A stretch of 40,449 nt of DNA from Elusimicrobiota bacterium (GTDB taxonomy: Bacteria; Elusimicrobiota; Elusimicrobia; F11), in assembly GCA_003140895.1 (NCBI GenBank), contig PLLH01000038.1:1-40449 (forward strand). Direction: 5' to 3'. A program made the position numbers and the translations under genes. The notes under the pieces were generated by a model. That model worked only from the letters and a program-made list of their open reading frames with translations. It did no database searches and had not been told where the DNA came from. Below, one piece after another: positions 4,785-20,258 of this stretch. How positions within the stretch are numbered: the stretch's first letter is position 1; each line of letters starts with the position of its first letter.

Positions 4785-5686
4785 GGATAAACTTTGTCGG
4801 CGTTTTTTTGAATCGCTTGAGCGTTTTCAGGGCTGATCAGGTTGGCTGTTTCCATGTTAACGTGGATCTGCGTGTTTGAGGGGAAGACGACAGGCGGCAC
4901 GTTGGCTCCCTTCATTAACTGATGCGCCGTTTGTCCCGCCGTGACTCCGATATCGTGAAAGCTGATGACCACGGCGCCCATGGCCCCTTTTTGAACCAAT
5001 GTGGTTGTCGGGACGTAGAGCGGAATTTTGTTTGAAAGGGAGAATTGTTTCAGAGTGGCGAAGCAGTCTTGTTTGATGAGATTGGGGTCGGGAAGAAGCC
5101 AAATAGATTGGGCTTGGGTGTGAATCTCCCTCAACGTTTCCGGAAGCCGGTCTGATGACGTCATTCGTTTCGAAACGAAGGCGAGATTGGTGGTCGATCG
5201 TTTTGTGAGATCGGCTACGTAACCGGAGAAGACATCGGCGATCCAAAGGACGGCTATTTTCCCCGATGGGGGGGAGAGGAGGGCGATGCGATTGGACAGC
5301 ACTTCAGGAGAGGGCATCATTTCAATTTTGACGGTGGCGGCATCGCGCTCGGCGGGATCGATGATTGTTCCCGGCGAAAGGCAATAAATCAACGGGGTGT
5401 TCTTGGGATAGCTATAGGCGGCGGCCCGGCCTCCAAAAGCAACAATCAGGCGAGTATCTGATTTGACGGGGGGGAGCGTTTTTGAGGCCAGAATGGTAAC
5501 AGAGGGTGAGCCTCCAAACGTATTGGTAAAACCATCGAGCGCTTCACGATAGGCATCAAGGTCGGAACTCAAAACAGCCACGACCTCAGAAGCGGTGGTT
5601 CGTACCGGTAACAAGAAAAATAAAAGAAGAGCAAAAAAATGGCGGTCCATTGGGTAAAGAAGCGAATAAACAGATTTCATTTTCAT
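4781..5686 (-). CDS. Periplasmic substrate-binding protein (ABC_sub_bind-like)
   Basis: A 301-residue exported protein. A hydrophobic segment (about 16-27) after an unusually long N-terminus ends near TTAS, giving a signal peptide. The rest resembles the ABC-type uncharacterised binding proteins of the ABC_sub_bind family: a GGRAAAY segment in the first lobe, and IPLYVPTTTLVQKGAMGAV and DIGVTAGQ segments in the second. No ABC permease or ATPase is adjacent. Instead the gene overlaps a sensor kinase, so a sensory role (ligand capture for the kinase) is likelier than transport. Met3 or Met13 are alternative starts; none of the three has a strong Shine-Dalgarno. Confidence 0.82.
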   Translation of the reverse strand: MKMKSVYSLLYPMDRHFFALLLFFLLPVRTTASEVVAVLSSDLDAYREALDGFTNTFGGSPSVTILASKTLPPVKSDTRLIVAFGGRAAAYSYPKNTPLIYCLSPGTIIDPAERDAATVKIEMMPSPEVLSNRIALLSPPSGKIAVLWIADVFSGYVADLTKRSTTNLAFVSKRMTSSDRLPETLREIHTQAQSIWLLPDPNLIKQDCFATLKQFSLSNKIPLYVPTTTLVQKGAMGAVVISFHDIGVTAGQTAHQLMKGANVPPVVFPSNTQIHVNMETANLISPENAQAIQKNADKVYP

Positions 5687-5771
5687 GGGCTGTGGACAAG
5701 ATTAACACTTGGAGATTTAAAAGCAACGTTTTTTTATGAAATGAGTTATTGATGTCTTTAATCTTCTTTGG

Positions 5772-6161
5772 CTATTTCTTTGGCGGTTCCTTGGCGTCGG
5801 CGAGAGCCGTTAGAACGGCTTGCTTGAAGCTTTCGTTCGTGAACGGTTTGTGGAGGAATTGATAAGGCCCTAAATTCTCTATGCTTCCAAGGCTGTCTTC
5901 AGGAGTGGGGGAGCCGGTCATGACAATAAGTTGAATGTCCTTGTGCTTTTCTTTGACCCCGCGGATCACATCGACCCCGTTTCCATCCGGGAGTTTGAGG
6001 TCCGTGATGAGAACATCTGGAGACAGAGTATTGCTAATGGTCAGCGCTTCTTGAACCAATTGAGCGAAGACGAGTTCGTGACCTTGGTCCTCTAACAAGC
6101 GTTTGCACAAGTGTCGAATGATTTCTTCGTCTTCAACGATGAGGATTGTTTTCTGGTCCAT
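5772..6161 (-). CDS. Single-domain response regulator
   Basis: A 129-residue receiver: acidic pair E10/D11, phospho-acceptor D54 (ITDLKLPDG), switch T82 and K105 (HKPF). The reading frame is open for 55 codons upstream, but that part lies inside the kinase gene and is not receiver-like. The ATG at 6161, giving MDQKTILIVEDEE, fits the family start exactly. It overlaps the 3' end of the receiver-GAF-kinase gene by 29 bp, so the pair is probably co-translated and functionally linked. No output domain is present. Confidence 0.92.
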   Translation of the reverse strand: MDQKTILIVEDEEIIRHLCKRLLEDQGHELVFAQLVQEALTISNTLSPDVLITDLKLPDGNGVDVIRGVKEKHKDIQLIVMTGSPTPEDSLGSIENLGPYQFLHKPFTNESFKQAVLTALADAKEPPKK

Positions 6162-7854
6162 TATCTTTCTCACGGTAGATGGGTAATTCGATGGCGAATG
6201 TTGTCCCGACCCCTTCTTCGCTTTCAACGCGAATGGTTCCCTGGTGCTCTTGAATGATCCCGTATGAAATGGATAATCCCAGCCCGGTTCCTTTCCCGAC
6301 GGGCTTGGTTGTGAAGAACGGATCAAAAATCTTCCCCATATTTTCTTTTGAAATACCAGATCCGGTGTCCTTAAAGAGGACGGCCATTGTTTCCGGCCCT
6401 TCTTTTATTTGAAGCGTGAGGATCGCCGGCTTTCTTTTCTCCATGGATTGCCGGGCGTTTGTGATGAAATTTAAGAATACTTGCTGGATTTGAGCCGGGT
6501 CGGCGAACACGAAGGGTTCCGAGGGGGGCACTTCCTGGATGATTTCGACGCCGGAGGTGGTGAAGTCATACTTGACCAGTTGAAGAGTGGATTCAAGAAG
6601 AGGGGCGAGATAAATGAGTTCTTTTTGGGATTCTTTGCGCCGGCTGAATTGCAGGAGATTTTGAATGATTTGCCGGCATCGTTTGCTTTGCGTGTAGATG
6701 GATTCAACATCTTCTCTGACTTGTTGGGGCAATTCGATGCTTTCCAAAACGATTTCTGAAAACCCCATGATTCCCGTGAGGGGGTTGTTGAGTTCATGGG
6801 CCACGCCCGCGGCCAACTGCCCCACGGCGGCCATTTTTTCGGATTGGAATAATTGAACCTGCGTTTCCTCAAGGCGCGCATACGCCTTTTTCAATTCCTG
6901 AACTTTATTCTCGAGCTTGTCATACAACTTGGCGTTCGACACGGCTTGCGCGATTTGAGATCCCAGGATGATGACACTGTAGAGATCTCCATTATTGAAG
7001 GGCAAGCGCTGAGCTGTTCGATTGATGTTAAGAACGCCGAGGGGTTCGCCGTTCAAAATAAGAGGATAGACGATAGAGGACGCGATATCTCGCAGCGGGG
7101 GGATCCCTTCAAAACGCGGGTCTTTTGAAATATCTCCCGTTAAGATGAGAGGTTCTTTCCAGAGAGCGGCTTTTCCCGCGATGCGGTCTCCAATGGCCAG
7201 GCTGGCTTCCCGGCGTTGCTCGTCCTGGAGCCCGGCCCCGGCGGCGAACGCGAGGTTCCCATCGGGTCCCATTAACAACAACGAGGCGTCGTCGGCCTTT
7301 AGAATTTTTAATATGAGTTGCATCGTGATCGGGAGGAGCGAGTCCAGTTTGATGGATGAGAAGATGGCTTTGCTGGTTTCGTAGACGCCGATGATCGTTT
7401 TCAGTTCGCTTTTCTCAAGAGCCTTCTCAACAAGGGCGAAGATCTCTTCAAGATTAAATGGTTTTTGAACAAAATCGTACGCCCCTCGTTTCATGGCGGT
7501 CACGGCGGTTTCGATGTTTCCAAAGCCGGTGGCGATGATGACTTCGATTTCAGGATTGTCTTTTTTGAGAGCTTCGAGGAGTTCTAGGCCTCCCAGTTTC
7601 GGCATTTTGACGTCGCTGATCGCCAGTTGGAACTTTCCCGCCTTTATTTTTTCGAGGGCGTCTTCGCCGTTGACGGCGGTGGTGACGTTGTACCCTTTTT
7701 TGGTGAGTTCTTGCGAGAGGAGAGCCCGAAATCCCGGTTCATCATCAACAACGAGGATGTGCGCTTCGGAGGGGTTGTATCCAGATTTGTTTAGATCATC
7801 TAATGTGTTTTGATTGTTTTCGATCACATCGAATCCTTTGATTTGATGATACAT
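6133..7854 (-). CDS. Receiver-GAF-histidine kinase (soluble hybrid kinase)
   Basis: Cytoplasmic hybrid kinase of 573 residues from the chosen ATG. Counted from a possible TTG start at 7917 (594 residues), the order is: an N-terminal receiver with D58/D59, D102, T130 and K152; a GAF domain at about 180-330; a short coiled coil; HisKA with H374 (GVAHELNNPL); and a HATPase with NARQSM, DTGSGIS, FDPFFTTK and GKGTGLGLSI boxes. No membrane segment is seen, so the input is a phosphorylated receiver plus a GAF ligand. I prefer ATG 7854, which has AAGG 11 nt upstream; the TTG at 7917 has no Shine-Dalgarno. The gene overlaps the following receiver gene by 29 bp. Confidence 0.92.
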   Translation of the reverse strand: MYHQIKGFDVIENNQNTLDDLNKSGYNPSEAHILVVDDEPGFRALLSQELTKKGYNVTTAVNGEDALEKIKAGKFQLAISDVKMPKLGGLELLEALKKDNPEIEVIIATGFGNIETAVTAMKRGAYDFVQKPFNLEEIFALVEKALEKSELKTIIGVYETSKAIFSSIKLDSLLPITMQLILKILKADDASLLLMGPDGNLAFAAGAGLQDEQRREASLAIGDRIAGKAALWKEPLILTGDISKDPRFEGIPPLRDIASSIVYPLILNGEPLGVLNINRTAQRLPFNNGDLYSVIILGSQIAQAVSNAKLYDKLENKVQELKKAYARLEETQVQLFQSEKMAAVGQLAAGVAHELNNPLTGIMGFSEIVLESIELPQQVREDVESIYTQSKRCRQIIQNLLQFSRRKESQKELIYLAPLLESTLQLVKYDFTTSGVEIIQEVPPSEPFVFADPAQIQQVFLNFITNARQSMEKRKPAILTLQIKEGPETMAVLFKDTGSGISKENMGKIFDPFFTTKPVGKGTGLGLSISYGIIQEHQGTIRVESEEGVGTTFAIELPIYREKDNGPENNPHR

Positions 7855-7956: not shown

Positions 7957-9207
7957 CTATAACGATGAGAGTTCCTTGCCAATGAGAGTGGTGTCTAATC
8001 CGTTATGCTCGAATTTGACGTAGAGCTCTTGCAAAAGACGAAGACGTTCGGTGGCGGAGGCTCCGGCCGCTTTCCGAGAAAAATAGATTCCGACGGCTTT
8101 GTTGAAGTCATCCGGGAGAGAGAGACCCTGTTGCTTCGTGGGTTGTTTAAGGGATGACGCTTCTCGGATTTCTTGAGAAGCCGGTTTCTGGCCGAGGGTT
8201 CGCGGCGCCTCCTCTGGCGTTCCCCATCGGAATGACAACGAAACCTGGTGGTCGCCTTGAGTTTGGGACAGATTGCCGATGGGGAAGGTGAACGCGTAAT
8301 CCAGATGAATCCAACGGAAGGAGAAGGACGCGCCGCTCGCAAGCATCTGGTATCCGCGGGAGCCTTGGGCGTAACCGGCGCGAAGCCCCATGGATCCGAT
8401 GCTTGACCACGACAACGTCCGTTCTATCCCGAAGGCGGTATCGGTGTCCTGCTCGTTCGCCATACGTTTTGTCCGCCTCACTTCAACCGATAGCAGCGCC
8501 CAGCGGGTTTGATGGGCCATTCCCACGCGGGCAATTAATGGCGCTCTGTCTTTGTCGTGGCCGAGAGAGAGATCGGGTTGGTTGATATTGGTCAGGGAAA
8601 CCCCGAATTTTGTTTTTCTGTTTTCTCCCAATTGATACATCGATCCCAGGTCAACGGCGTAGGCCTGTTTCGAATATCCATTTTTTTCGAAAAGAGGATC
8701 GGGGCGGCCGGTGGCGGTTCCGGCGTCGTTTAAGGCGTTGTTTGTGTACGCGGATGCTTCGTATTGCCGATTGAATTGTTTGACGTTGATTCCCAGCGAC
8801 CATTTCCCGTCCCATCCAAAGGTGAACGGGGCCAGTTGTTTACCGTAGCTGAGAGTCATTGTCCGGTCAGTGAAATAGTCTGCTCCTTTGTAATTCTGAT
8901 ACGCCAATCCGAACGTTCCCAGACGTCCCCCTTGAAGTTGTTGCAGATAACTAACGTAATTGCTTTTAACGGAAGACGCGTCGTCTAAGCCTTTTAAAAA
9001 TTGCCCATAGTGAGTTGTGAATTCCCTGCCGTTAATTTGAGTTGAACCGGCGGGATTGTAATACATCGCGTTGGCGTCGTCTGATACGGCCACGAACGCC
9101 TCCGCCATGCCTCGGGCGCGAGCTCCCGCCCCCGCGTCCTCAAATCCAGCCAGCGCGGGTTCGAGGAGGCCCATGAAGCCGATGAGAACAATCGTTAACG
9201 TTTTCAT
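7957..9207 (-). CDS. PorV/PorQ-like (UPF0164) outer-membrane barrel protein
   Basis: This 416-residue protein has a signal peptide (cleavage near ALAG) and the PorV/PorQ hallmark N-terminus: GAGARARGMAEAFVAVSDD followed by ANAMYYNPAG. Alternating beta strands of a FadL/PorV-type barrel run to about residue 330 (LSFRWG). A charged periplasmic-type tail of about 85 residues follows. In Bacteroidetes, PorV shuttles or anchors type IX secretion cargo at the outer membrane; that role is family knowledge, not shown here. The ATG overlaps by 4 bp (ATGA) the gene for a secreted FN3 protein with a FlgD/T9SS-like C-terminal domain, which makes that protein the obvious candidate partner. Confidence 0.87.
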   Translation of the reverse strand: MKTLTIVLIGFMGLLEPALAGFEDAGAGARARGMAEAFVAVSDDANAMYYNPAGSTQINGREFTTHYGQFLKGLDDASSVKSNYVSYLQQLQGGRLGTFGLAYQNYKGADYFTDRTMTLSYGKQLAPFTFGWDGKWSLGINVKQFNRQYEASAYTNNALNDAGTATGRPDPLFEKNGYSKQAYAVDLGSMYQLGENRKTKFGVSLTNINQPDLSLGHDKDRAPLIARVGMAHQTRWALLSVEVRRTKRMANEQDTDTAFGIERTLSWSSIGSMGLRAGYAQGSRGYQMLASGASFSFRWIHLDYAFTFPIGNLSQTQGDHQVSLSFRWGTPEEAPRTLGQKPASQEIREASSLKQPTKQQGLSLPDDFNKAVGIYFSRKAAGASATERLRLLQELYVKFEHNGLDTTLIGKELSSL

Positions 9208-10406
9208 CGGGCCACCGCCACCGTTCCGGTCAGGACTTTGTTTTCACCGTTAATGCGATAGACATAGAGTCCGCTGGGAACGACCGATCCGCCGGAGTCC
9301 ATGCCCGACCAGACCAGCGTTGTTGCCGTGCCCATGGATGAAAGAGGGGATAGGGTGGCGACGTATCGGCCGGAGGGTTCAAAAATCTTTCCTTCAACGG
9401 AGGCGCCATTCGGGTTTTCAAGAACGAAATAGACTCGGTCGTTGTAGCCGTCGCCGTTGGGCGTGAAGAGGGACGGATAAACGTTCGTTTGACGCAGAGT
9501 GAGTGAAGCGGCTTTGGGCGCCAAGCGCAGTTGGTAGCGTCCTAGGTTTGAGGTCGCCACACTCACGGTTTGTCCGTGGGTGTCCACGGTTCCGCCGACG
9601 TTCACCCATGTGACGCCGTTAAACCAAAAAAGAGCCAGTTGATCGGGTGATCCGCTGGAGAACGCTTCTTGTTGGGACAATCTGTTCCCGGGAGCCCCAA
9701 GGGCGATCTGACCATCGATCGTGTTGTATCCCACGTTGATGATGACCGGCGACGTGAACGCCATGTCCGACACCTCTTCATTTGTGTCGCCCCGGTGAAG
9801 TTGTATGTTGATGCTGCGGACGACGCCGGCCTGAGCGGGCGTCGTCTCTTCGTTCAGTTTGACGGTGAGGGGAACTCCGTATTTGTTGTAGGCGGGGCGT
9901 AGGATGTCACTGGCGTTACCGGGGATGGTGATGGCCGAATGGCCATCATCGGCTGTGAAAATGGTATTGAGTTCCGGGCTGGAATCCACCAGGAGCGATT
10001 CTTTGGATTCGTTGCCGGATGCGTCCGCCGCCCGGACGGAATAGTAATACGTCAGACCGTCGACACGATCCGCGAACACCGTTAGGGAGATGGGGGTGGA
10101 GTTGATCTTGGAGGCGGCCCCTTTTGGTGATGTTCTCCGGTAAATGTTGTAACCGACGATCTCGGACAGGGCCGCCACGTCCCTCTGTTGGCCAACGGGT
10201 TCCCATATCAGGGTAAAGGTCTTTCTCCATGGATCCCCAAACCCTTTAAGTCCCAGGGGTTCAATGGCAAGAACAGCGGGAGTGGAATTGCTGGACGCGT
10301 ACGGCGTAACGGGAGATACCATTACAAGAAAGAACAGGGAAAAGACCAGTGCGGATCGTGTCGATTTTTCTGGTGGGTTTAAGAGATCGAGGCCGGTCTT
10401 TTTCAT
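9204..10406 (-). CDS. Secreted FN3 protein with FlgD/T9SS-like C-terminal domain
   Basis: About 400 residues from ATG 10406. Residues 20-36 are a hydrophobic signal segment ending near YAS. A fibronectin type III-like domain follows (about 45-140, with YNIYRRTSPKG and YYSVRAADASGNES). The middle beta-rich region contains an ITIPGNASD segment. The C-terminal 90 residues (SLFTPNGDGYND onward, then LVWSGMDSGG and PSGLYVYRI) form a FlgD-like Ig / gliding-motility-type module, usual for surface sorting or anchoring. AGGGG lies 10 nt before the chosen ATG; an upstream TTG at 10448 has no such site. A good promoter lies 5'. It overlaps the PorV-like barrel gene by 4 bp. Confidence 0.84.
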   Translation of the reverse strand: MKKTGLDLLNPPEKSTRSALVFSLFFLVMVSPVTPYASSNSTPAVLAIEPLGLKGFGDPWRKTFTLIWEPVGQQRDVAALSEIVGYNIYRRTSPKGAASKINSTPISLTVFADRVDGLTYYYSVRAADASGNESKESLLVDSSPELNTIFTADDGHSAITIPGNASDILRPAYNKYGVPLTVKLNEETTPAQAGVVRSINIQLHRGDTNEEVSDMAFTSPVIINVGYNTIDGQIALGAPGNRLSQQEAFSSGSPDQLALFWFNGVTWVNVGGTVDTHGQTVSVATSNLGRYQLRLAPKAASLTLRQTNVYPSLFTPNGDGYNDRVYFVLENPNGASVEGKIFEPSGRYVATLSPLSSMGTATTLVWSGMDSGGSVVPSGLYVYRINGENKVLTGTVAVAR

Positions 10407-10460
10407 ATCCAATTTACCCCTGTATTCCACATAATCAGATAAATACAATCTCTCTAATTA

Positions 10461-10491
10461 ATTATGTATATCCAATAACTGAATTTGTCAA
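10461..10491 (-). promoter_or_regulatory. Sigma70-like promoter for the 9204-10406 gene
   Basis: On the minus strand a perfect -35 TTGACA (10491-10486) is followed by CATAAT (10466-10461) at 19-bp spacing; TATACA lies at 15 bp as an alternative. It sits about 55 bp upstream of the chosen ATG. This suggests that the secreted protein/barrel pair has its own transcription start and does not depend only on readthrough from 10601. Confidence 0.5.
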
Positions 10492-10512
10492 CGGGGGTAG
10501 TCTGTCTATATT

Positions 10513-10539
10513 GCAAGTAATTGATAATCAATTACTTGC
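10513..10539. promoter_or_regulatory. 27-bp perfect palindrome, candidate operator
   Basis: Left arm GCAAGTAATTGAT (10513-10525), one central A, right arm ATCAATTACTTGC (10527-10539): 13-bp arms with no mismatch. It lies 21-48 bp upstream of the TTGACA box of the minus-strand promoter, a position typical of an activator or enhancer site. It is not followed by a T run on either strand, so it does not look like an intrinsic terminator for the gene ending at 10601. The binding protein is unknown. Confidence 0.5.
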
Positions 10540-10600
10540 TTATATTCTTTGGTAAGATGGGTTTGTTTTTAGTTGGACGGTAAGGGAGGTAAAAAGGGGT

Positions 10601-12010
10601 TTAAAGCACCCATTCTCCTTTCTGTTTTTCATCGTTTAGGAACGCGGTGATTTTTTGCCGATAGGCTTCGGGCAGGGGGGATTTTTCATATAGCAGTAGG
10701 AATTTGAGGCTTCTGAGAACCTCGCGCTGGACGTCCGGATTGGGGTCTCGGAGGAGCTTAAAGAGAATATCAAGGGTTGTGGTTGTCCCGATTCGAGCCA
10801 AGGAGGCGACAATGCTGGCTCGGGTCCAGGGGTTTTTATCCTCCGCCAAGCCTTTCAAAAATTGAAGAGCTTCGTCGGCTGATGTGGTATATAAACTCAT
10901 CACCTGATCCGCGATGCGGTCCCAGGAGGTTCTTCGTTCGGGAGGAGGGATGTCGCCCATGACGCCTAAAATTTGTTCTTCTTGACGTTTGGCCAGCGAG
11001 AGATCGAGTTGAGCGGCGGTGGATGTTGCGAAGGGAACTCCGCCCGGAGATGTTTTTCTTTTCTCCGCCCATTCGGCCTTCATTTTCTCTTCTTCCTGTC
11101 GCCTTTTCTCGGCTATTTCGGCGAACATCTTCTTCTCTTCGTTTCGTTTTAATTTGTCCATTTCAATATGAAGGTGTTCCTCTTCTCTTCTTTTGATCTT
11201 GGCCAGCTCGGCGGCTCGCTTTTCGGCTTCTTCTTTGGCTTCCATATCTCGTCGGAGAGCGGTTCGTTCCGCTTCCTCTTTTTTTATCGTTTCCTGAAAT
11301 AGTCTCGTTTGGTCGAGCAAGGTGCGCCGGTAATTTTGAAGAGTGAAAAAGAAAAACAGCGCCATAACCAATCCAACGAAGAAAAGCAGATAGATAAACA
11401 GGTTGCTATGAAAAAAGGATGGTTGGTTCTGCGCGGTCGATGAGAGGGGGGCTTGTTTTAGGGAAGGCGGATGAACCGCTTCTTCATGATCATGGGCGGG
11501 CGGGGGAGCATAGACAGGCGCGCTTTCCTGTCTTTTGGGTTTGGGGGTTTCTTTTTTGACAACGCGCCGGACCGGTTCCGCCTGTTGCGGGGGCGGCTCC
11601 GCGAGGGGGGCTCGTGTGAGAGACCCGTATAGGCTTTTTATTTGTGGATCAAACGGGAGATATTTTTGAGATTGCAGAATGAGGTTTTGCGCGCTTTGCG
11701 AATCACCGATTTTGATTTTCGCCTGAATCGTTCGAACATACACTTTAAGGAGAAGTTTTTTGGCTTTTTCGTTCTGGCTGTTTTGATCCAGGGCTTTGTT
11801 GAGATGTGTAATAGAGGCTTCGTCGTTTCCGTCGAGAAAGGCCTGAACGCCTTCGCGGTACGGATCGGCGGCGGATGAATCGGAAGAGGAGGATTCGTTC
11901 AGGGGAGCGGACGATAGATTCCCGGACATGAAGAGTGGGAGGAAGAGGAAAACTCCCGCCTGGAGTGCCGCCGTCAGTCGATGCCCATGGGGTCTGTTTA
12001 AGCTGTTCAT
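10601..12010 (-). CDS. TPR / transmembrane / coiled-coil / HEAT-repeat protein
   Basis: A 469-residue protein of unknown function with a clear mosaic. It has a signal-like hydrophobic N-terminus (about 14-36), a TPR-like helical region (about 48-135), and a Pro-rich linker (about 138-190). One TM helix follows at about 205-223 (IYLLFFVGLVMALFFFF), then a highly charged Glu/Lys coiled coil (about 235-320). HEAT-like repeats occupy the C-terminus (about 375-465, with DKNPWTRASIVASLARIG and RDPNPDVQREVLRSLKFL). If the N-terminus is exported, the TPR part would be periplasmic and the coiled coil plus HEAT part cytoplasmic, a trans-envelope scaffold. It starts 1 bp after the stop of the PorV/TPR gene, so it belongs to that operon. 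Confidence 0.75.
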   Translation of the reverse strand: MNSLNRPHGHRLTAALQAGVFLFLPLFMSGNLSSAPLNESSSSDSSAADPYREGVQAFLDGNDEASITHLNKALDQNSQNEKAKKLLLKVYVRTIQAKIKIGDSQSAQNLILQSQKYLPFDPQIKSLYGSLTRAPLAEPPPQQAEPVRRVVKKETPKPKRQESAPVYAPPPAHDHEEAVHPPSLKQAPLSSTAQNQPSFFHSNLFIYLLFFVGLVMALFFFFTLQNYRRTLLDQTRLFQETIKKEEAERTALRRDMEAKEEAEKRAAELAKIKRREEEHLHIEMDKLKRNEEKKMFAEIAEKRRQEEEKMKAEWAEKRKTSPGGVPFATSTAAQLDLSLAKRQEEQILGVMGDIPPPERRTSWDRIADQVMSLYTTSADEALQFLKGLAEDKNPWTRASIVASLARIGTTTTLDILFKLLRDPNPDVQREVLRSLKFLLLYEKSPLPEAYRQKITAFLNDEKQKGEWVL

Positions 12011-12011
12011 C

Positions 12012-13484
12012 TTATTCGGTCTCGCTTAGATCTTTAACTCGCCCGTAGAGCCGTTGCGCTTCTTGGTTGTCCGGATCGAGTTCCACGGCTGTGATCAATT
12101 GCTGCGCCGCTTGTTTGTAGTCTTCTTCAATGAGATAGATTTGCGCGTGAGCCATTGCCTTAAGTGTATTCACTTTTACGGAAGGCGCAATCTTCTCGAT
12201 AATTTTTAAGCACTGCTGGTATTGTTTGGCCGCGTAAAAATCTTTGGCTTGATCGAACTTGATTTCAGAGGTGTCTCTGGATTGTTTGTCTTGAATCGCT
12301 TTTTCCAGCGCCACCGTTTCCGGGTCGTTCGGCCGTTCATTTAAGATGAGGGTGACAATGCGTTGGGCTTTTTCATAGTCGCCTTCATCGAAAAGCGTTT
12401 GCGCTTTTCGCCGGAGATTGTCGATGTCCGCGGAATCTTGTCTTTTCTGCGGTTTTTCTCCTTTTAATTCGTGCGTGAGCCGTTTTAAGGCCGCCTCCCT
12501 TTTTTGGATGCGTTCCCACTCTTCCCGGATTCGTTCTTCCGCGAACGTGGGGAGGTTTCCAAAACGGATGGTCACTCCAAAACGATGGAGAATTTCAAGC
12601 TCGTTGAAGCTCGTGGAGTAGTCGATGACCAGCGGATCCTTTTCAATTCCAAGCCCCAGCGTGTATTCCTTTTGGTTGATTCCCATCCGGAGGAAGAGGG
12701 GCACCACTTTCGTTTTTAAGAGTTGCGCTTCCAACCCGACTCCCCACCGGAGTCCTTTGGCCGATGTTTTTTGCGACGTTGTGTCCGCGCAAAAAAGGAA
12801 GGAACGGTCCCAAAGCGTGAAATGGAGAGCCGCTCCTGTTTTTATGGCGAGAGGAAAATCATCTTTTGTGTCTTTTAGTTTGAGAGAGGGGGCGATGGCG
12901 TTTTGAAGCGATAACCCCAGGTTAAGAAAATCGCCGAAGGGATGCGTCTGAACTCCAATATCCATTCCGTACCCCGTGGCGGAGTAACCCGCCAGGGATT
13001 GCCGGACGACTTTAATGTTCATGCCGGTATCCAGATAATCCTCCAGGAGCTCCCGCCCATAGGTTAACAGGAAGGCCATGTCTTGTTCGTCGAAGGTGCC
13101 GTTCGCCTGGCCGAACACATCCGTTCGTTCCGCTTGGCCCGATCCCAAATAGAGGAACGAGAGGCCGGCGCTGTCCAAATGCGTCATGGGATACGAGATG
13201 GTGAGAGATTGATAGCGGCCCGCCGACACGAGAGGCGCCACCATAAAGCCGGCTTCACCGGTTTGATTGCCGACGATGCCGGCGGCGTTCGAATAGGGGA
13301 TGGCCGATCCTTTAAGCGCCGTCGCGGCGTTGGCGAGTCCCGCTTCCCGGGCGCTCGCGGCAAACGAGTTGAGCCACTCTCCAGGGGTTCCGCCGTCGGC
13401 CGTCCGTGTTCGATAGGGAAGTTCCAATGCCAGTGACGCGTTTGCCAAGAAGAGGGCACAGAGGAACTGGGCGGCGCGCTTCAC
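12012..13484 (-). CDS. PorV/PorQ-like barrel with C-terminal TPR domain
   Basis: A 490-residue exported protein (signal peptide to about residue 19, ALA). It has an N-terminal PorV/UPF0164-like barrel (about 20-315, with NAATALKGSAIPYSNAAG near the start, degenerate relative to the usual YYNPAG). A charged helix (about 320-350) leads to TPR repeats at about 360-488 (AQTLFDEGDYEKAQRIV and AVELDPDNQEAQRLYGRV). The TPR part would sit in the periplasm, for protein contacts. It begins at GTG (13484) with a 4-bp GTGA overlap with the Kelch/FN3 surface-protein gene, the same arrangement as the 9204/7957 pair. The TPR/HEAT membrane protein follows after 1 bp. Confidence 0.8.
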   Translation of the reverse strand: MKRAAQFLCALFLANASLALELPYRTRTADGGTPGEWLNSFAASAREAGLANAATALKGSAIPYSNAAGIVGNQTGEAGFMVAPLVSAGRYQSLTISYPMTHLDSAGLSFLYLGSGQAERTDVFGQANGTFDEQDMAFLLTYGRELLEDYLDTGMNIKVVRQSLAGYSATGYGMDIGVQTHPFGDFLNLGLSLQNAIAPSLKLKDTKDDFPLAIKTGAALHFTLWDRSFLFCADTTSQKTSAKGLRWGVGLEAQLLKTKVVPLFLRMGINQKEYTLGLGIEKDPLVIDYSTSFNELEILHRFGVTIRFGNLPTFAEERIREEWERIQKREAALKRLTHELKGEKPQKRQDSADIDNLRRKAQTLFDEGDYEKAQRIVTLILNERPNDPETVALEKAIQDKQSRDTSEIKFDQAKDFYAAKQYQQCLKIIEKIAPSVKVNTLKAMAHAQIYLIEEDYKQAAQQLITAVELDPDNQEAQRLYGRVKDLSETE

Positions 13485-16400
13485 TTGAGCACCCCGATCC
13501 GGCGAATTTCCTTATCGGCGCTTCCAGACGTCTCCGCTCTGATTTCCATGATGTAGACGCCGTTGGCGACCGTACTCTGGGAGTCATTTTTTCCATCCCA
13601 GGTTATTTCATTCGTATAACCGAGGGGGTTTCCCATGCCTCCCGTTGAGCCCGGCGAAAATTCTTTGACGCTGACCAAATCGCCCAGAAGCGTATAAATG
13701 CGGATCGTGACGCGTGAATCCTGCGTCAAAATATACCGGATGCGCGTCACCTCGTTCCCGGCCGCAAACGGGTTTGGAAAGTTGGTGAGACCCGTGAGAT
13801 TTTTGGAGGGGGTGGCGGATCCGACGACGCTGTAAACGAACAAACTGTTGACGGTCGCGGTGATGTCTCGTTCACTGGAGGAGCGAACGGTTTGCGTGGG
13901 GACAATCTCCCAACGCCCGCGGGTTTGGTTCAAGCTCGCGATCTTGAGAAGTTTGATGTCGGTGGCCCCTGGATCAACGCTTTGGGCGGTGCTCGTTCGA
14001 GCGGTGCTCGTTCGAGCGGCGCTCGTTTGAGCGGCGCTCGTCTCTGCTGTGATATGGCAGGTGATCCGAGCCAGTATTGAAGGGGGGGGGAGGGCGTCTC
14101 CATTAATGTCGCTGATCTGAAGATTCCAGACGGGGTAGTCGAGGACATGGATGAGGCGGTCGCCGATGGAATCGCGATCGCTTTGATCAAGGATCGTCTT
14201 ATGGGTGTTTTGAGCGTCCCGGATCCGGATGAATTCCTGCGAGCTCAATCCGGAGAGTATTTCCACCGTCAACAAACCATCGGAGCTTTTGGCTTTGGAG
14301 CGGGCCAGCATGAAATGCTCCGTCGCGCTTTGAGTCTCCAGAGAGAGGGAGTTCCGTACCGTGACGCGCCAGTAATACGTCGTGTCCATAAGCAGAGAGC
14401 CGATCGTGGGGCTGTAGTTGGTTTGGGCCAGGTTTGAGACGGTCGTTCCGCCAAGAAGTGAGCTGTTCGTCGAATACAACAAGGAATAGACCAACCCGTC
14501 TTTTGCCTGGTTGGACGGAGCGTCCCACGAAAAAACGAGATCAAACACGGTTGGGAAATCATTCTCCAGGGGTTTGAGCAACGCGAACGTCTTTGGCGGC
14601 AACGGGTTGTAGATCTCAAAGAGGTCGGTGAAGATGGTGGTTGTGAGCGGAGGGGCGCCTGAGTCCGACGCGATCAATTTGAATTTGCACGTGGTTGAAT
14701 TGGGCCATGTTTTGGAATCCAGCACATAACTGGTTTGCGTTCCGGAAGAAAGAAAAACGTAGTTCGTTCCTCCGGATGACGATAAATAGAGGGCATAGGA
14801 ATAGGAAATGTAGGGGCTGGGGTTGCGTGTCTCCCACTGCACCGTCAACGCGTCAGATAGTCGCTGGCCCTGCGTTGGGGCGGATGTGAAGGCCACATCC
14901 GGCGCCTGGCTGAAACTTTGTTTCTCGAAATTCGCGTCAGAGGCGTCCGTGGCGGAATACCCCATCGGGTCAACGACCTCAACTTGAATGCGAAAGGAGG
15001 AACCGTTCGGTAAACCGCTGGAGTTCCATTGATAGCTCGTTGTCCCGGAAGGGATTCCGCTTGAAAGGAGGATCGGATAACTGATCCCGCCGTCAAACGA
15101 AAGGCGCAGAGCGCTGGTCAACGTTTCCCCGGTGTTGGGATCGGAGACCGTCCAAGAAATCGGTGTGAGTTGATTGACCTGTTCTCCACCGTTGGGGGAC
15201 AGAAGCGTCACCGTGGGAGAGGCATTCGTCATCGCGTACGGGCTCACGGTTGAGAGCGGCGAGACGCCGCCCCGGTTGTCCTCCGTTTTGATGGCGAAAT
15301 AATACGTGGTGGCGTCGGAGAGACCGGTCATGGTACTGACGACGGTGTCGCCGGGGTTGGCGACGAGCGGAAGCGTTTGCGAGTTCGGGGCCGCCGTCCA
15401 CTCCGCGTTCGACAAAATAGGCCCTTGCGTTGAGGCGCGCATATACAATTTTCCGTTGTCGACTCGTCCCTCATCGTCTCCGGGGAAAGTCCAGGTCACT
15501 TGGATTTGGCGATTACCGGGTCCTCGCAACGCAGCCATTATCGTTACCGGAGACGGAGGTCCGTTGCTCCTCGCCGACGGGCTCACCGTTGATAAATTAG
15601 ACCTGTTACCCAGGGCGTCATCGGTTTTTATGGCGAAGTAATAGGTGGTGGCGTCCGATAGCCCTGTCACAACGGTGTGGATCGTATCACCCAGAGAGGC
15701 GTTTAGAGCTTCCGAGTAGGACACCGTGGCGGCGGTCCAGGACGTTGTCGTGAGAATGGGGCCTTCCGTCGAAGCTCGGACGAGGGTCAGCCCGTTGTTG
15801 ACCCGGCCCCCATCGTCCCCCGGGAAAACCCAGGTGAGGGTGATCTGCCCGTTTCCAGGGCCCACCGCGGCCGTCATTTGGGTCACGGGTTGCGGAGGGC
15901 CGTTTGTTCGAGCGAAAGGACTCACCAAGGAGAGAGCGGACCGGTTTCCCAGTTCGTCGTCCGTTTTTATGGAGAAGTAGTAGGTTGTGGCGTCTCCCAG
16001 CCCCGTCACGGTGCTCACCACCGTTTCTCCCGGATTGGCGTTTAAGGTAAATGTTCGTTCTTCTCCTGCGGCAGCGTTCCACGCTCCTTCCGTGAGGATC
16101 GCGCTTTCCGTCGAATATCGGACAACGGCCAATGCATTGTCCAACCGGCCTTGGCCCAAGAAGGCGCCCGAGGAGACCCAAGTGAGAACGATTTCTCCAT
16201 TGGCCAGACCCATGGCGGCGGTCATTTGCGTAACAGCCCCAGGAGGAGTTGTGGTGTCGATCACCAATCTGTACGGGTCGCTCCACTCTCCGTAAAGACC
16301 CCAGGTGTCTTTCGCGCGCGCTCGCCAAACCCAGGTTCCCTGAGGTATGTTTGTCTGAGGGATAAACGACACATTGGAACCATCTTGAGGAATATTTTCA

Positions 16401-18037
16401 GTTGATATCACGGGATGAGTGAAGTTGGTCGAGTTGTCAATCTGGAAGTGATAGGTCACGGGCAAGTCGCCCGCTCCGTCGTTATCCGCGGAGAGTTGCC
16501 ATCGAAACGTGGGTTTCGATTGATTGGTTCGGGCGGCGTTAACAGGGGTGGTTAGAACACCGGACGAAGGGGCTTGGTTGTACGCGAAATTAAAAGCCGA
16601 TACCAACGGACGAGAAGGGATGTTTGTTGAGATAAAAAGCGCGTCCATTTTTAAATAACGTTGATTGGCGTGTCCGGCCCAGAGAGCTTGAGAATATGAA
16701 CTTGTAAAGACGTAATAACTGTTCGTCGTTCCATCGGGCCCCCGAAATGAATCGTACGTGACTCCGTCCGTCGAGGAGGCCACCCGCGTTTTGATTTGAG
16801 TGCCCGCGGCGGGGGGCGATGCGTTCATGGGATCACTGAATTGAAGAGCCAGCGTGTCCCATGTGAGCGGGGTTGTTCCGTTCACGTGAAGCGCCGGCGA
16901 GCTCCACGTCCCCGTGGATCTCAGCACATACGACCAAAGGAGGTTTGTGGCCACATCACGCCGACCTCCGAACACCAGGCCCTTGTTGGTGTTGGAGTTG
17001 TAAACCATTTGATGCCCGTACCGGCCTGACGGAGCCGAAGGGACCGAAAACGAAAGCCATCGGTTCTGAGTGGCGTCATAAAAAAAAGTGTCTCCCACAT
17101 ACCCGGTCAGCGCGTTTCGTCCGCCGAACATGACGATTTGACTATGGAGGGAGTCGAACGCCATGGCCGTGTCGGTTCGCGGGCTTGGTTTTTGAGCCGG
17201 GGCTTTTTCCTCCCATACATTGTTTGTGATGTCGTAGGCCCAGGTGTCATCAAATAGATCTCCGCTGTTCCAACCGGTGGTTCTTCCGCCGAAGAGAATC
17301 ATCCGGTGACGGACGGGGTCGTAGGCCATCGCCGCTCCCTGTCGGGCGGGCGGTGACGGGATAGGGTTATACACCGACCAACTGGCGGCGGCCACGTCAA
17401 ACACACAGGTGAAGGGTTGCGCCAGGAAACCACTTTCGCTTTCACCTCCGAACATGACGATTTTATTGTGATCGGGGCTATAGGCCATGACAAACGACGA
17501 TCGAACGTCCGGAGACGAGGGGGTGACAATATAGCTCCATGAGCTGGCGGCGGGGTTGTACATCCACGTGTCATTCAATAATTGGTCGGACAAATTTTTC
17601 CCGCCGAAGAGAATGAAATTGCCTCCGGCCCAGACAAGGCGGTGGTTGCTACGGGCGGTCGGCGCCGTGGAGGGGGATTGTTGAGTCCATCCGGAGGAAG
17701 ACAAAATCCAGGTGTCGCTCGAGACAACGCCATAATAGTCCCGCCCGCCAAAAACCAAGGATTCATTTCGATTTGGATCGTACGAAAACCCCATGTCGTA
17801 TCGCGCGGAGATGACGGGGGAGCTGTAGTCCCAATGGCTGGTCAATGTCAGAAGGTTGTCTTCAACTTCGACGTTGTCTTTTGTGCCGGATCCGAAGGAG
17901 GCCGAATCGAGGGCCGTTGATCCTCCTCCATACAAGGTGGGTTTTAAAAGGAGGAGGATACACAGGAGAACCGTGAGCCGTCCGAAGGGCTTACTCGTGT
18001 GTTCGAGAAGAGATTTTGGATGTGGGTCTGGGGTCAT
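13481..18037 (-). CDS. Giant secreted Kelch/FN3 protein with T9SS-like C-terminal domain
   Basis: A 1518-residue protein with a hydrophobic export segment at about 20-37. A Kelch beta-propeller covers about 75-375 with six FGG-centred blades (near residues 95, 143, 195, 248, 304 and 356). A beta-sandwich linker region follows, then three near-identical FN3 repeats of about 113 residues (roughly 598-940), and further Ig-like domains. The last ~100 residues match FlgD-like / type A sorting domains: NFPNPFAAGN, IRIYTLLGDLV, EITWDGKND and NGVYIMEIRA, then a short basic end. AGGAG lies 5 nt before the ATG. It overlaps the PorV/TPR barrel gene by 4 bp. Likely a cell-surface adhesin or structural protein; the ligand is unknown. 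A C9 tract and a 15-bp tandem repeat lie upstream of the sorting domain. Confidence 0.87.
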   Translation of the reverse strand: MTPDPHPKSLLEHTSKPFGRLTVLLCILLLLKPTLYGGGSTALDSASFGSGTKDNVEVEDNLLTLTSHWDYSSPVISARYDMGFSYDPNRNESLVFGGRDYYGVVSSDTWILSSSGWTQQSPSTAPTARSNHRLVWAGGNFILFGGKNLSDQLLNDTWMYNPAASSWSYIVTPSSPDVRSSFVMAYSPDHNKIVMFGGESESGFLAQPFTCVFDVAAASWSVYNPIPSPPARQGAAMAYDPVRHRMILFGGRTTGWNSGDLFDDTWAYDITNNVWEEKAPAQKPSPRTDTAMAFDSLHSQIVMFGGRNALTGYVGDTFFYDATQNRWLSFSVPSAPSGRYGHQMVYNSNTNKGLVFGGRRDVATNLLWSYVLRSTGTWSSPALHVNGTTPLTWDTLALQFSDPMNASPPAAGTQIKTRVASSTDGVTYDSFRGPDGTTNSYYVFTSSYSQALWAGHANQRYLKMDALFISTNIPSRPLVSAFNFAYNQAPSSGVLTTPVNAARTNQSKPTFRWQLSADNDGAGDLPVTYHFQIDNSTNFTHPVISTENIPQDGSNVSFIPQTNIPQGTWVWRARAKDTWGLYGEWSDPYRLVIDTTTPPGAVTQMTAAMGLANGEIVLTWVSSGAFLGQGRLDNALAVVRYSTESAILTEGAWNAAAGEERTFTLNANPGETVVSTVTGLGDATTYYFSIKTDDELGNRSALSLVSPFARTNGPPQPVTQMTAAVGPGNGQITLTWVFPGDDGGRVNNGLTLVRASTEGPILTTTSWTAATVSYSEALNASLGDTIHTVVTGLSDATTYYFAIKTDDALGNRSNLSTVSPSARSNGPPSPVTIMAALRGPGNRQIQVTWTFPGDDEGRVDNGKLYMRASTQGPILSNAEWTAAPNSQTLPLVANPGDTVVSTMTGLSDATTYYFAIKTEDNRGGVSPLSTVSPYAMTNASPTVTLLSPNGGEQVNQLTPISWTVSDPNTGETLTSALRLSFDGGISYPILLSSGIPSGTTSYQWNSSGLPNGSSFRIQVEVVDPMGYSATDASDANFEKQSFSQAPDVAFTSAPTQGQRLSDALTVQWETRNPSPYISYSYALYLSSSGGTNYVFLSSGTQTSYVLDSKTWPNSTTCKFKLIASDSGAPPLTTTIFTDLFEIYNPLPPKTFALLKPLENDFPTVFDLVFSWDAPSNQAKDGLVYSLLYSTNSSLLGGTTVSNLAQTNYSPTIGSLLMDTTYYWRVTVRNSLSLETQSATEHFMLARSKAKSSDGLLTVEILSGLSSQEFIRIRDAQNTHKTILDQSDRDSIGDRLIHVLDYPVWNLQISDINGDALPPPSILARITCHITAETSAAQTSAARTSTARTSTAQSVDPGATDIKLLKIASLNQTRGRWEIVPTQTVRSSSERDITATVNSLFVYSVVGSATPSKNLTGLTNFPNPFAAGNEVTRIRYILTQDSRVTIRIYTLLGDLVSVKEFSPGSTGGMGNPLGYTNEITWDGKNDSQSTVANGVYIMEIRAETSGSADKEIRRIGVLK
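13986..14045. repeat. Four-copy 15-bp tandem repeat inside the Kelch/FN3 gene
   Basis: Units GCGGTGCTCGTTCGA (13986-14000), an identical copy (14001-14015), a copy with two changes (14016-14030) and a partly diverged copy (14031-14045). Being a multiple of three, it adds a Thr/Ser/Ala/Arg pentapeptide per copy in the minus-strand protein, forming a flexible linker before the C-terminal domains. Copy-number change would alter linker length without breaking the frame. Confidence 0.9.
14082..14090. repeat. Nine-base G/C homopolymer in the Kelch/FN3 gene
   Basis: Nine consecutive G on the plus strand (C9 in the coding sense, encoding Pro-Pro-Pro within DALPPPS). It is longer than the 7-G runs I noticed elsewhere in the window. 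It lies about 600 bp before the stop codon, upstream of the C-terminal sorting-like domain, so slippage would truncate that domain. Confidence 0.9.
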
Positions 18038-18090: not shown

Positions 18091-18480
18091 CTAGCTGGTC
18101 TTGAAAATTTCGCTCAGCTTTTCCAATAACAGGGCGACTGGAAACGGCTTTTCTAAATACGCCGTCACTTTTAAATCTTCCCGGATATCCAGGAGTTCTT
18201 TTAAGTGGCCTTTCCCGGTCACGATGATGACGGGGATTTGCGCGGTCTGTGGATCCTCTTTGAGTCGCAAATTAACGGAATGGCCGTCCAGCTTCGGCAT
18301 CATGAGATCCAAAATAATGGCGTCCGGATGGAAGGCCCGCACTTTCTCCAGCCCTTCAACTCCATTGGACGCCGCCAATGTTTTATAGCCGTTTTTTTCC
18401 AGAGCCATTTTGAGTACGAACACAACGTCGGGCTCGTCATCCACGATTAAAATGGTTTTTATGCTTTCTTCGTTGCTCAT
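18091..18480 (-). CDS. Single-domain response regulator
   Basis: A 129-residue receiver: acidic pair D14/D15, phospho-acceptor D58 (ILDLMMPKLDG), switch T88 and K111 (EKPF). No output domain. The ATG overlaps the preceding receiver-histidine kinase gene by 4 bp (ATGA), so kinase and receiver are almost certainly partners. The Kelch/FN3 surface-protein gene begins 53 bp downstream and may be read from the same transcript. Confidence 0.93.
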   Translation of the reverse strand: MSNEESIKTILIVDDEPDVVFVLKMALEKNGYKTLAASNGVEGLEKVRAFHPDAIILDLMMPKLDGHSVNLRLKEDPQTAQIPVIIVTGKGHLKELLDIREDLKVTAYLEKPFPVALLLEKLSEIFKTS

Positions 18481-19637
18481 GGGGTTTCACCTTCCTTTTG
18501 AATCGGTTGTTTTGGCAGTGAAATATAAAATTGACTCCCTTTTCCCAGTTCGCTTTCCACCCACGCGTTTCCGCCGTGCATCTCAACCACGGCTTTAACG
18601 ATGGATAGACCAATGCCGGTGCCTCCCGTTTCCCTCGTTGACGAACCGTCCACTTGATAGAAGCGATCAAAGATTCTCTTTTGATCGTGTTGATCAATGC
18701 CCGGCCCCGTGTCCCAGACGCAAATTCGAATATCATTTCCTTGGTCTTCGAGCTTGATTCCCACTTTCCCTTTTTCCGGCGTGAACTTAATGGCGTTTCC
18801 AAGGAGGTTGATCAACACGTGTTGAATTTGTTCTGGATCGGCCGTGAAACGAGTCGTGAAAGGGGATGGATTCGTTTCAAAGACAAAGTCAATCTCGCGC
18901 CGGGCAAAGAGGGGGGCCAATCCGGCCGTCGTTTCTTTTATGAGGTTGGATAAATCCAATTCGCGCGGTTTAATGTGCAACGTCCCGTTTTCAAGGCGGG
19001 AAAAATTGAGAATATTTTCAATCAGCCGTCGAAGGCGTTCGATGTTATTTCGCATGACGTCACACAACTGTTTCATGGGGTCGCTTAAGGATTCATACAT
19101 ATCTTGAAGGAGGATCTCCAAGGCGGCGGCGATGGCGAAAAGAGGCGTGCGCAGTTCATGGGATACATTGGAAACGAACTGGGCTTTTAGCTTGTCGACT
19201 TCTTCCAGACGGAAAACGGTTTCCTTGAGGCGCCGGGATTCGAGTTCTTGATCATAATGCCGTAAGCAACGAAAGGCCATGGCGGTGAGTTCTTTCTTCT
19301 CGCATGGTTTGGAGAGGTAATCGCACGCTCCCAATTGCATGCATTCCACGGCTCCTTCGATTGTGACCAAGCCCGTGATCATGTTAACGCAGGTGGCGCT
19401 GTGTTTTTGTTTGACGTATTTGAGAAGGTCTTTGCCGCTGATGCCGGGCATGTTGATGTCGGTGAACATGACGGCGAAGGTTTGGTCTTTGAGAATTTGA
19501 ATGGCTTCTTCTCCGGTGGCGGCGGTGACGACATCAAACCCTTCCGACGTTAAAAAACGAGTCCAGACGCTGAGGACGCTTGTGTCGTCGTCAACGACGA
19601 GGATTCGTTTCGGGTTTGTAACGGAATTAATCACCAT
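18477..19637 (-). CDS. Receiver-histidine kinase (soluble hybrid kinase)
   Basis: A 386-residue cytoplasmic protein. The N-terminal receiver (about 10-125) has D16/D17, phospho-acceptor D60 (FTDINMPG) and K110 (SKPC). HisKA follows with H160 (NVSHELRTPL). The HATPase has N box (NLLGNAIKF), G1 (DTGPGID), F (FDRFYQVDG) and G2 (GGTGIGLSIV). There is no membrane segment or sensory domain, so the receiver itself is the input, as in a phosphorelay intermediate. It overlaps the following receiver gene by 4 bp and sits 33 bp after the HTH-receiver gene. Confidence 0.93.
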   Translation of the reverse strand: MVINSVTNPKRILVVDDDTSVLSVWTRFLTSEGFDVVTAATGEEAIQILKDQTFAVMFTDINMPGISGKDLLKYVKQKHSATCVNMITGLVTIEGAVECMQLGACDYLSKPCEKKELTAMAFRCLRHYDQELESRRLKETVFRLEEVDKLKAQFVSNVSHELRTPLFAIAAALEILLQDMYESLSDPMKQLCDVMRNNIERLRRLIENILNFSRLENGTLHIKPRELDLSNLIKETTAGLAPLFARREIDFVFETNPSPFTTRFTADPEQIQHVLINLLGNAIKFTPEKGKVGIKLEDQGNDIRICVWDTGPGIDQHDQKRIFDRFYQVDGSSTRETGGTGIGLSIVKAVVEMHGGNAWVESELGKGSQFYISLPKQPIQKEGETP

Positions 19638-19670
19638 GATTCGCCCCCAAACTTGACCTTAATCGTTTCG

Positions 19671-20258
19671 CTATTGTTGAAGGAGCTTGAGGAGCCTTTC
19701 TTTTAATTCCTTGTTTTCGAAGGGCTTCGGAAGGTAATCATTGGCTCCGGCGCTCAAGATTCGTGTTTTCGCATCAGGAAAATCCTTCCCTGTGATAGCC
19801 AGGATTTTGGTGTGATTGAACCTTTGGTTGTTGCGAATGTGTTTGCAGACGTTAAACCCGTCGATGCCGGGAAGGCCTAAGTCCAGGATGACGATTGAGG
19901 GGAGAAACTCCAACGCTTTGGCGCCGGCTTCGAATCCGTCGCTGGCTTGATAGACTTCCGCCGCCGGATCGATGGATTTGATGACGTGCGTGATCACCTT
20001 TCGGATATCCGGTTCGTCGTCGACAACCAGACATTTGATGCAGGCGTATTGGTTGAGTTGGGAAGGGATTGGCATCTTGTATTGTTTTAAAAACTTGATG
20101 AGATCGTCGGGACTGATGCGGCGGTGTCCTCCCGGGGTTTTAAAGGCCTGCAATTTCCCTTGTTGGCACCAGTCAATGACGGTGGCCATGTCGACACCCA
20201 GCAATTTGGCGGTGTCAAACGTGCTGAGTAGTTTTGGCGTTTGAGTTGTTATGTCCAT
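19671..20258 (-). CDS. HTH (MerR/excisionase-type)-receiver protein, inverted domain order
   Basis: 195 residues from ATG 20258, which has AGGGAGG 5 nt upstream; an ATG at 20291 is open but lacks this. Residues 12-60 form an HTH_17/BldC-like winged helix (TAKLLGVDMATVIDWCQQGK, then the TPGGHRRI wing). A receiver follows at about 74-195 with D80/D81, phospho-acceptor D126 (ILDLGLPGIDG), T156 and K178 (PKPF). Response regulators normally place the receiver first and the DNA-binding domain last; here the order is reversed. It is the only obvious DNA-binding regulator in the window and the first gene of the leftward block, so it is the prime candidate to control the downstream surface-protein genes or itself. 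Confidence 0.9.
   Translation of the reverse strand: MDITTQTPKLLSTFDTAKLLGVDMATVIDWCQQGKLQAFKTPGGHRRISPDDLIKFLKQYKMPIPSQLNQYACIKCLVVDDEPDIRKVITHVIKSIDPAAEVYQASDGFEAGAKALEFLPSIVILDLGLPGIDGFNVCKHIRNNQRFNHTKILAITGKDFPDAKTRILSAGANDYLPKPFENKELKERLLKLLQQ

Follow-up and report, generated by a model that had tools for sequence, protein, structure and literature searches.

The type IX secretion system (T9SS) has been described as exclusive to Bacteroidota (PMC12618676, 2025), as limited to the Bacteroidetes–Chlorobi–Fibrobacteres group (PMC12421860), and, in an earlier survey, as present in Bacteroidetes only (PMC4793230). Solved complexes indicate that the lateral gate of the SprA translocon is closed by a PorV-type carrier, which binds the C-terminal domain (CTD) of the cargo in the pore through its loops and leaves with the cargo (PMC10994853). 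Dedicated carriers have precedents: In Flavobacterium, it is established that type B CTD cargo has a PorP/SprF carrier encoded next to it; for such cargo, the neighboring SprF-like carrier acts specifically, is required for secretion, and is produced in stoichiometric amount (PMC12618676; on cognate adjacent carriers in stoichiometric amount, also PMC9143113). A second dedicated-barrel case, PorZ/PorQ, has been proposed, and according to a hypothesis put forward in a review, the CTD is shielded from cleavage by cognate PorV-like barrels of the PorZ/PorQ kind (PMC10202324). Here we analyze a 40,449-nt contig of an uncultured Elusimicrobiota bacterium (assembly GCA_003140895.1, contig PLLH01000038.1; its whole length is called the window) that carries two overlapping gene pairs, each encoding a secreted cargo with a T9SS-like CTD and a PorV-family barrel. 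Set against the rest of the genome and the phylum, these sequences suggest a one-carrier-per-cargo version of T9SS-like secretion in Elusimicrobiota.

All four open reading frames of the two pairs were confirmed open at their coordinates, on the minus strand. Cargo 1 (9204–10406), a secreted protein with an FN3-like region and a type-B-like CTD, is followed by barrel 1 (7957–9207), a 416-aa protein assigned to the PorV family of outer-membrane carriers; the 4-bp overlap is ATGA, the junction reads CGATGAAAAC, the cargo ends in ...GTGGCCCGATGA, and the barrel starts with ATGAAAACG. Cargo 2 (13481–18037; 1518 aa), also secreted, combines a Kelch beta-propeller, FN3/Ig domains, and a CTD, and is followed by barrel 2 (12012–13484), a PorV-family carrier with a GTG start and C-terminal periplasmic TPR repeats. 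Here the 4-bp overlap is GTGA (junction AAGTGAAGCG; cargo end ...GTGCTCAAGTGA; barrel start GTGAAGCGC). These exact overlaps, with the family matches below, bear out a preliminary description of the window, in which two PorV-like barrels each overlapped by 4 bp a gene with a T9SS/FlgD-like CTD. Homologs of cargo 1 lie immediately 5′ of the homologous barrel at loci L217, L086, L144, and L218, and the closest named relatives are Elusimicrobiota, the top barrel match being Candidatus Obscuribacterium magneticum (64% identity).

Both barrels fit the PorV family best, not the PorP/SprF family. Against the NCBIfam model PorV_fam (NF033709), barrel 1 scored 1e-19 (71 bits) and barrel 2 1.3e-24 (87 bits), both below the curated 90-bit cut-off; the PorP/SprF model TIGR03519 was a secondary match for barrel 1 only (9e-11, 41.7 bits; cut-off 90.55). 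Barrel 1 has a signal peptide, 14 predicted strands, and a short helical C-terminal tail (residues ~343–416). Its AlphaFold2 model (predicted local distance difference test, pLDDT, 82) is PorV/FadL-type with N-terminal helices, and its best PDB fold matches were PorV in the T9SS translocon, 8gl6_F (top; a CTD-bound translocon) and 6h3i_F, with FadL also among the matches. Barrel 2 additionally matched PorQ (1.2e-15), whose equivalog model scored above the PorV equivalog model, and TPR_19 at its C-terminal end (2.3e-8). A profile of 24 barrels from the window's own genome had Flavobacterium johnsoniae PorV (6h3i; 1.7e-33) as its top solved structure, with weak matches to TodX (5.7e-7) and FadL. 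Family-model scans of the pair proteins for the Omp85/TpsB barrel family and an N-terminal two-partner secretion signal gave no match.

The cargo tails belong with T9SS signals. The CTD of cargo 1 (9207–9536, minus strand) carries the type-B-like motif FTPNGDGYND, ends in GTVAVAR, and matches CHU_C above cut-off (9.8e-7); it was modeled by AlphaFold2 as a beta-sandwich (pLDDT 88.6) whose sole PDB fold match below 1e-3 was the T9SS protein PorZ (5m11). The CTD of cargo 2 (13484–13822, minus strand) is type-A-like, with an FPNPF motif, and FlgD_ig-like at 21.5 bits, below cut-off; the tail also matches T9SS models (NF052323, 2e-10; PorU tail, 1.3e-6), and the own-genome CTD profile covers residues 1420–1518. 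That type of profile, built from 25 own-genome CTDs, matches the solved T9SS CTDs of PorU (6za2), PorZ (5m11), and the SprA–PorV translocon (8glj_D).

Pairing of barrels with CTD genes recurs throughout the genome (2.53 Mb, 99.8% complete; the window is its contig C59). Most of the large putative surface proteins end in a T9SS-like tail and have a PorV-type barrel gene of their own as immediate neighbor. It encodes ~27 PorV-family barrels and ~32 CTDs, the PorV_fam matches on C52, C55, and C11 being left out of the barrel count as judged FadL-like. A CTD gene adjoins 22 of the 27 barrels, about 30 times the chance rate (~0.75 expected, P ~4e-30). When CTDs were called by Pfam FlgD_ig alone, with neighborhood ignored, 19 of 21 adjoined a barrel. 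Same-strand overlaps of 4 bp mark 12/18 cargo–barrel junctions and 42/230 other junctions of the same loci (p = 2.5e-5). Across seven genomes—this one and six near-complete relatives—CTD genes adjoin 96 of 120 barrels (80%), so barrels do not lie mostly away from CTD genes, the finding that the preliminary description had named as decisive against it. The cargo comes first in 86 of these 96 (50 with a 4-bp overlap) and the barrel in 10; in the own genome, the barrel-first order occurs at C4, C85, C116, and C16b. Among named Elusimicrobiota contigs, scanned with a profile from three close barrel sequences, all 29 pair-1-type barrels sit 3′ of a CTD gene, 26 with overlap. "Cargo first, barrel second," as first described, thus holds as a rule and not universally, and the proposal of a dedicated barrel for each large surface protein stands at the genomic level. 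About 10 barrels from KSB1, Zixibacteria, and one other bacterium had no CTD neighbor recognizable with a CTD profile trained on Elusimicrobiota, which makes this contrast a weak one.

Several unusual arrangements accompany these loci. Giant CTD cargo genes of 7700–8300 codons stand beside TPR-tailed barrels at G000:C77 (frame end ~23299) and G001:C14 (an 8354-aa frame). CTD-only mini-proteins (a signal peptide plus CTD, ~113–148 aa, without cargo) occur just 5′ of a barrel, sometimes directly after a full-size CTD cargo, at G000:C12:43258-43599 (L068:9459-9800) and also at L226, L230, L231, G001:C9, and G010:C8. At G000:C118:1-1886 (L086), a cargo–barrel pair is directly preceded by three nearly identical small secreted proteins in tandem, ~180 aa each. 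An apparent cargo–barrel fusion at C5:5231-7867 (878 aa) was rejected, since an assembly N and a frame change break its CTD, and its barrel begins with a separate start codon and a signal peptide. A 7398-aa frame at G005:C28 (L162) contains, with no stop between them, a giant cargo with its CTD (contig 53238–53498) and a PorV-type barrel (53628–54455); it is either a natural fusion or an indel or lost-stop error, and was kept out of the evidence.

Barrels and CTDs diverge together. Over 94 pairs, barrel and CTD distances correlate (Mantel r = 0.51, reached in 0/2000 permutations), also when permuted within genomes only, and the nearest CTD neighbor falls among the five nearest barrels in 62 pairs, with ~5 expected by chance. 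For both window pairs, the nearest-barrel and nearest-CTD lists largely agree. Type-B-like CTDs go with one barrel subgroup in 10 of 12 cases (permutation maximum, 8). This correlated divergence indicates that pairs evolve as units; that a cargo here depends on its own carrier for secretion is consistent with it.

The genome also encodes a putative translocon. A single-copy, distant SprA homolog of ~1870 aa lies on contig C32; it matches TIGR04189 (2.3e-32, 111 bits; cut-off 200), and its profile matches F. johnsoniae SprA (6h3i/6h3j) over four stretches (3.4e-28), a single-sequence search of the PDB having given no match. SprA homologs are present in 19/21 close relatives and 76/80 Elusimicrobiota genomes, and barrels number from 0 to at least 31 per genome against one SprA. 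Three of the four genomes without SprA have no barrel and one has two (Fisher p = 5e-5). One translocon, many carriers, and their joint loss argue that the barrels serve SprA. The preliminary description had supposed a scheme distinct from the T9SS; with SprA single-copy across the phylum and barrels lost along with it, this looks instead like a translocon of T9SS type, served by many dedicated carriers.

Further core components were also searched for. GldM (TIGR03517) had no match in the own genome at E ≤ 0.1, and GldL (TIGR03513) none in 20/21 genomes, with one weak 18.6-bit hit in the remaining one; the control set for both contained no T9SS-positive genome, and the search did not extend to GldK, GldN, SprE, or PorT. 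The PorU C25 sortase (PF01364) was likewise unmatched in the own genome, and in the controls too, so that this search had no positive control. Around SprA itself, G000:C32:19266-28653 (L089) brings together sprA, two lptF/lptG-like genes, and an orphan PorV-family barrel; with weak barrel hits close to sprA in G001 and G008 as well, this barrel is a possible partner of the translocon itself. A 1.1-Mb reduced genome retains a SprA remnant with two in-frame stops (G035:C1:953515-953796) and one weak barrel hit, and the three related small genomes G067, G088, and G090 have lost SprA and all barrels.

Many barrels carry C-terminal additions. Among 43 extensions scanned, TPR repeats were found in 18, LysM in four, OmpA in two, and a FlgD_ig-like domain in three. 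In Bacteroidota, a separate protein, PorE, with TPR and OmpA-type peptidoglycan-binding regions, tethers next to PorP (PMC9143113, PMC12204202). Periplasmic tethers fused to the barrels fit static anchoring. Two PorV-type barrels, at G000:C98:1591-2892 (L078) and G008:C10:52842-53942, have an extra FlgD-like Ig domain that follows the barrel portion and is predicted to face the periplasm.

We consider it likely that each cargo is exported, and probably also held, by its own cotranslated PorV-type carrier feeding one SprA-type translocon; that both window pairs are members of a large cognate cargo–carrier set in this bacterium is likewise probable. Gene structure, family membership, adjacency, correlated divergence, SprA presence, and SprA–barrel co-loss are directly established; from binding onward, through export and surface location, we infer the steps. 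The cargo would be made with a signal peptide and pass the inner membrane by Sec. Within the SprA pore, the PorV-type barrel whose gene comes next would then recognize the C-terminal Ig-like domain of the cargo, a step we infer from the solved SprA–PorV–CTD complexes together with the correlated divergence. The barrel would take the cargo out sideways and remain bound as its outer-membrane anchor. Translational coupling through the 4-bp overlap would supply carrier and cargo in roughly equal amounts, as would fit a carrier that is not reused and two proteins that stay together. TPR, LysM, and OmpA extras would probably link the whole assembly with the cell wall or with accessory proteins, of which the HEAT-repeat protein of pair 2 is an example.

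Several observations weigh against this reading. About 20% of barrels lack an adjacent CTD gene, and in G001 only 16/21 CTD genes have an adjacent barrel, the other 5/21 being orphan cargoes; these orphans on both sides make some carrier sharing likely. Correlated divergence can arise from joint duplication or inheritance without strict binding specificity, so it alone does not prove specificity. The SprA likeness is distant and below the curated cut-off, and with GldM and GldL not found, a T9SS-type cycle here has no explained energy source. The first two points lend themselves to an account in which, T9SS-like, CTDs and barrels are promiscuous, adjacency reflects co-expression only, and the correlation stems from duplication of whole units: The pairs are clearly inherited as units, cross-talk of related type B CTDs with SprF-like carriers is documented (PMC12618676), and orphan CTD genes and barrels do occur. 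One carrier for many cargoes would leave little need for ~20–30 barrels per genome, however; Bacteroidota PorV is said to shuttle every type A cargo (PMC12618676), and here CTD flavor follows barrel subgroup. We regard sharing as the general rule as unlikely. A division of labor, with the adjacent barrel only anchoring its cargo in the manner of PorZ/PorQ and a separate general carrier, such as the orphan barrel beside sprA on C32, doing the export, draws on the higher PorQ than PorV equivalog score of barrel 2, on PorZ as the top fold match of the CTD model, on the linkage of a PorV-family barrel to sprA in the own genome, on the weak barrel hits close to sprA in G001 and G008, and on PorZ, whose uncleaved CTD is what PorQ holds (PMC10202324). 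Export itself requires the adjacent barrel in SprB/SprF, the cognate pairs studied best (PMC12618676, PMC12635249), and we judge this division improbable here.

Two further alternatives dispense with SprA or with secretion altogether. One barrel per cargo and translational coupling recall two-partner secretion, in which each barrel would be the outer-membrane pore for its cargo with SprA uninvolved. The barrels, however, belong to the PorV/FadL and not the Omp85/TpsB type, and the model shows N-terminal helices; the cargoes have a T9SS-like signal at their C-terminal end; and SprA is near-universal in the phylum, with barrels disappearing alongside it in reduced genomes, all of which makes this very unlikely. 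Least probable is a role of the barrels in FadL/TodX-like transport of small hydrophobic molecules, with surface-protein genes next to them by chance. Their profile does match TodX and FadL weakly, and the fold search lists FadL, but PorV is the best match both in fold and in sequence (1.7e-33; TodX, 5.7e-7), CTD genes adjoin them at ~30 times the chance rate with overlap coupling, and the likely FadL-type barrels of C52, C55, and C11 are separate and have no CTD-gene neighbor.

Between the pairs lies a gene for a TPR/TM/HEAT protein (10601–12010, minus strand), which the preliminary description took for a possible accessory. It begins 1 bp past the end of barrel 2 and encodes C-terminal HEAT repeats (HEAT_2, 2.9e-10) and a charged coiled coil; a signal peptide, a TPR-like N terminus, and one transmembrane (TM) segment were read by eye. 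A homolog holds the same position in G005, a relative from another family (L164:4073-5410; 26% over 499 aa, 1.5e-24), so the gene is probably part of the pair 2 unit; an accessory role is likely for pair 2 only, where the protein might be bound by the barrel tail. Downstream, a strong palindromic stem at 10513–10539 (GCAAGTAATTGATAATCAATTACTTGC) separates the pair 2 operon from cargo 1 and is a possible bidirectional terminator or operator; apart from this one stem-loop, a promoter and terminator scan gave matches at shuffle level. Hybrid histidine kinases and response regulators crowd both flanks of the pairs (2946–7854 and 18091–20258).

A literature search that left preprints and most subscription papers outside its range found no paper substantively linking Elusimicrobiota with PorV and the T9SS. 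SprA throughout the phylum together with expanded PorV-type carriers would widen the distribution of the T9SS, and the ~100 natural cognate CTD–carrier pairs would offer material for deriving recognition rules by co-variation and co-folding. Such a system would also pose the question of what powers a SprA translocon in the absence of GldLM, and it suggests one way in which the little-known Elusimicrobiota may display proteins as long as several thousand residues on their surface. More tentatively, at somewhat less than even chances in our estimate, the SprA-based, T9SS-like machinery of Elusimicrobiota does without GldLM, the motor of Bacteroidota, and perhaps also lacks the PorU sortase; nearly every cargo would be both exported and, from then on, permanently retained by a PorV-type carrier of its own, made in translational coupling with it and in many cases including a periplasmic tether.

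Dedicated barrels are not unprecedented: SprB/SprF-type pairs (PMC12618676) and the proposed PorZ/PorQ case (PMC10202324) precede them. The cognate-pair principle here resembles both, and what is new is the scale, the PorV-type carriers, the phylum, and the undetected motor genes. Like SprB–SprF, Fjoh_3952–3951, and PG1035–PorP, the pairs have a dedicated barrel gene directly 3′ of a CTD cargo gene, and the CTD of pair 1 is type-B-like (PNGDG); in Bacteroidota, such pairs show cognate specificity, a stoichiometric carrier, and in some cases a peptidoglycan link through PorE (PMC12618676, PMC9143113). By contrast with those pairs, the carriers here are of the PorV/PorQ type, type-A-like CTDs come with barrels of their own too, larger genomes hold ~20–30 pairs with a usual 4-bp overlap, possible anchors are fused to the barrel, the phylum is Elusimicrobiota, and GldL and GldM were not found. 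PorQ–PorZ shares with the Elusimicrobiota pairs a PorV-family barrel, there holding a specific protein by its uncleaved CTD, and the CTD fold, which matches PorZ; it is a single attachment-complex pair, whereas the scheme here is general, with PorU not found in a search without positive control. Two-partner secretion (type Vb) has one barrel per exported protein and adjacent genes but another barrel family, and here the signal is C-terminal and the SprA translocon separate. Bacteroidota PorV (6h3i, 8gl6) is the best sequence and fold match to the barrel family; there one PorV serves all type A cargo, and here many paralogs each have a neighboring cargo. With a SprA/Sov homolog, PorV/PorQ-type carriers, and cargo bearing C-terminal CTDs all present, the likeness is to the Bacteroidota T9SS, of which the dedicated-carrier form may be an older or parallel version and the single shared PorV a later simplification.

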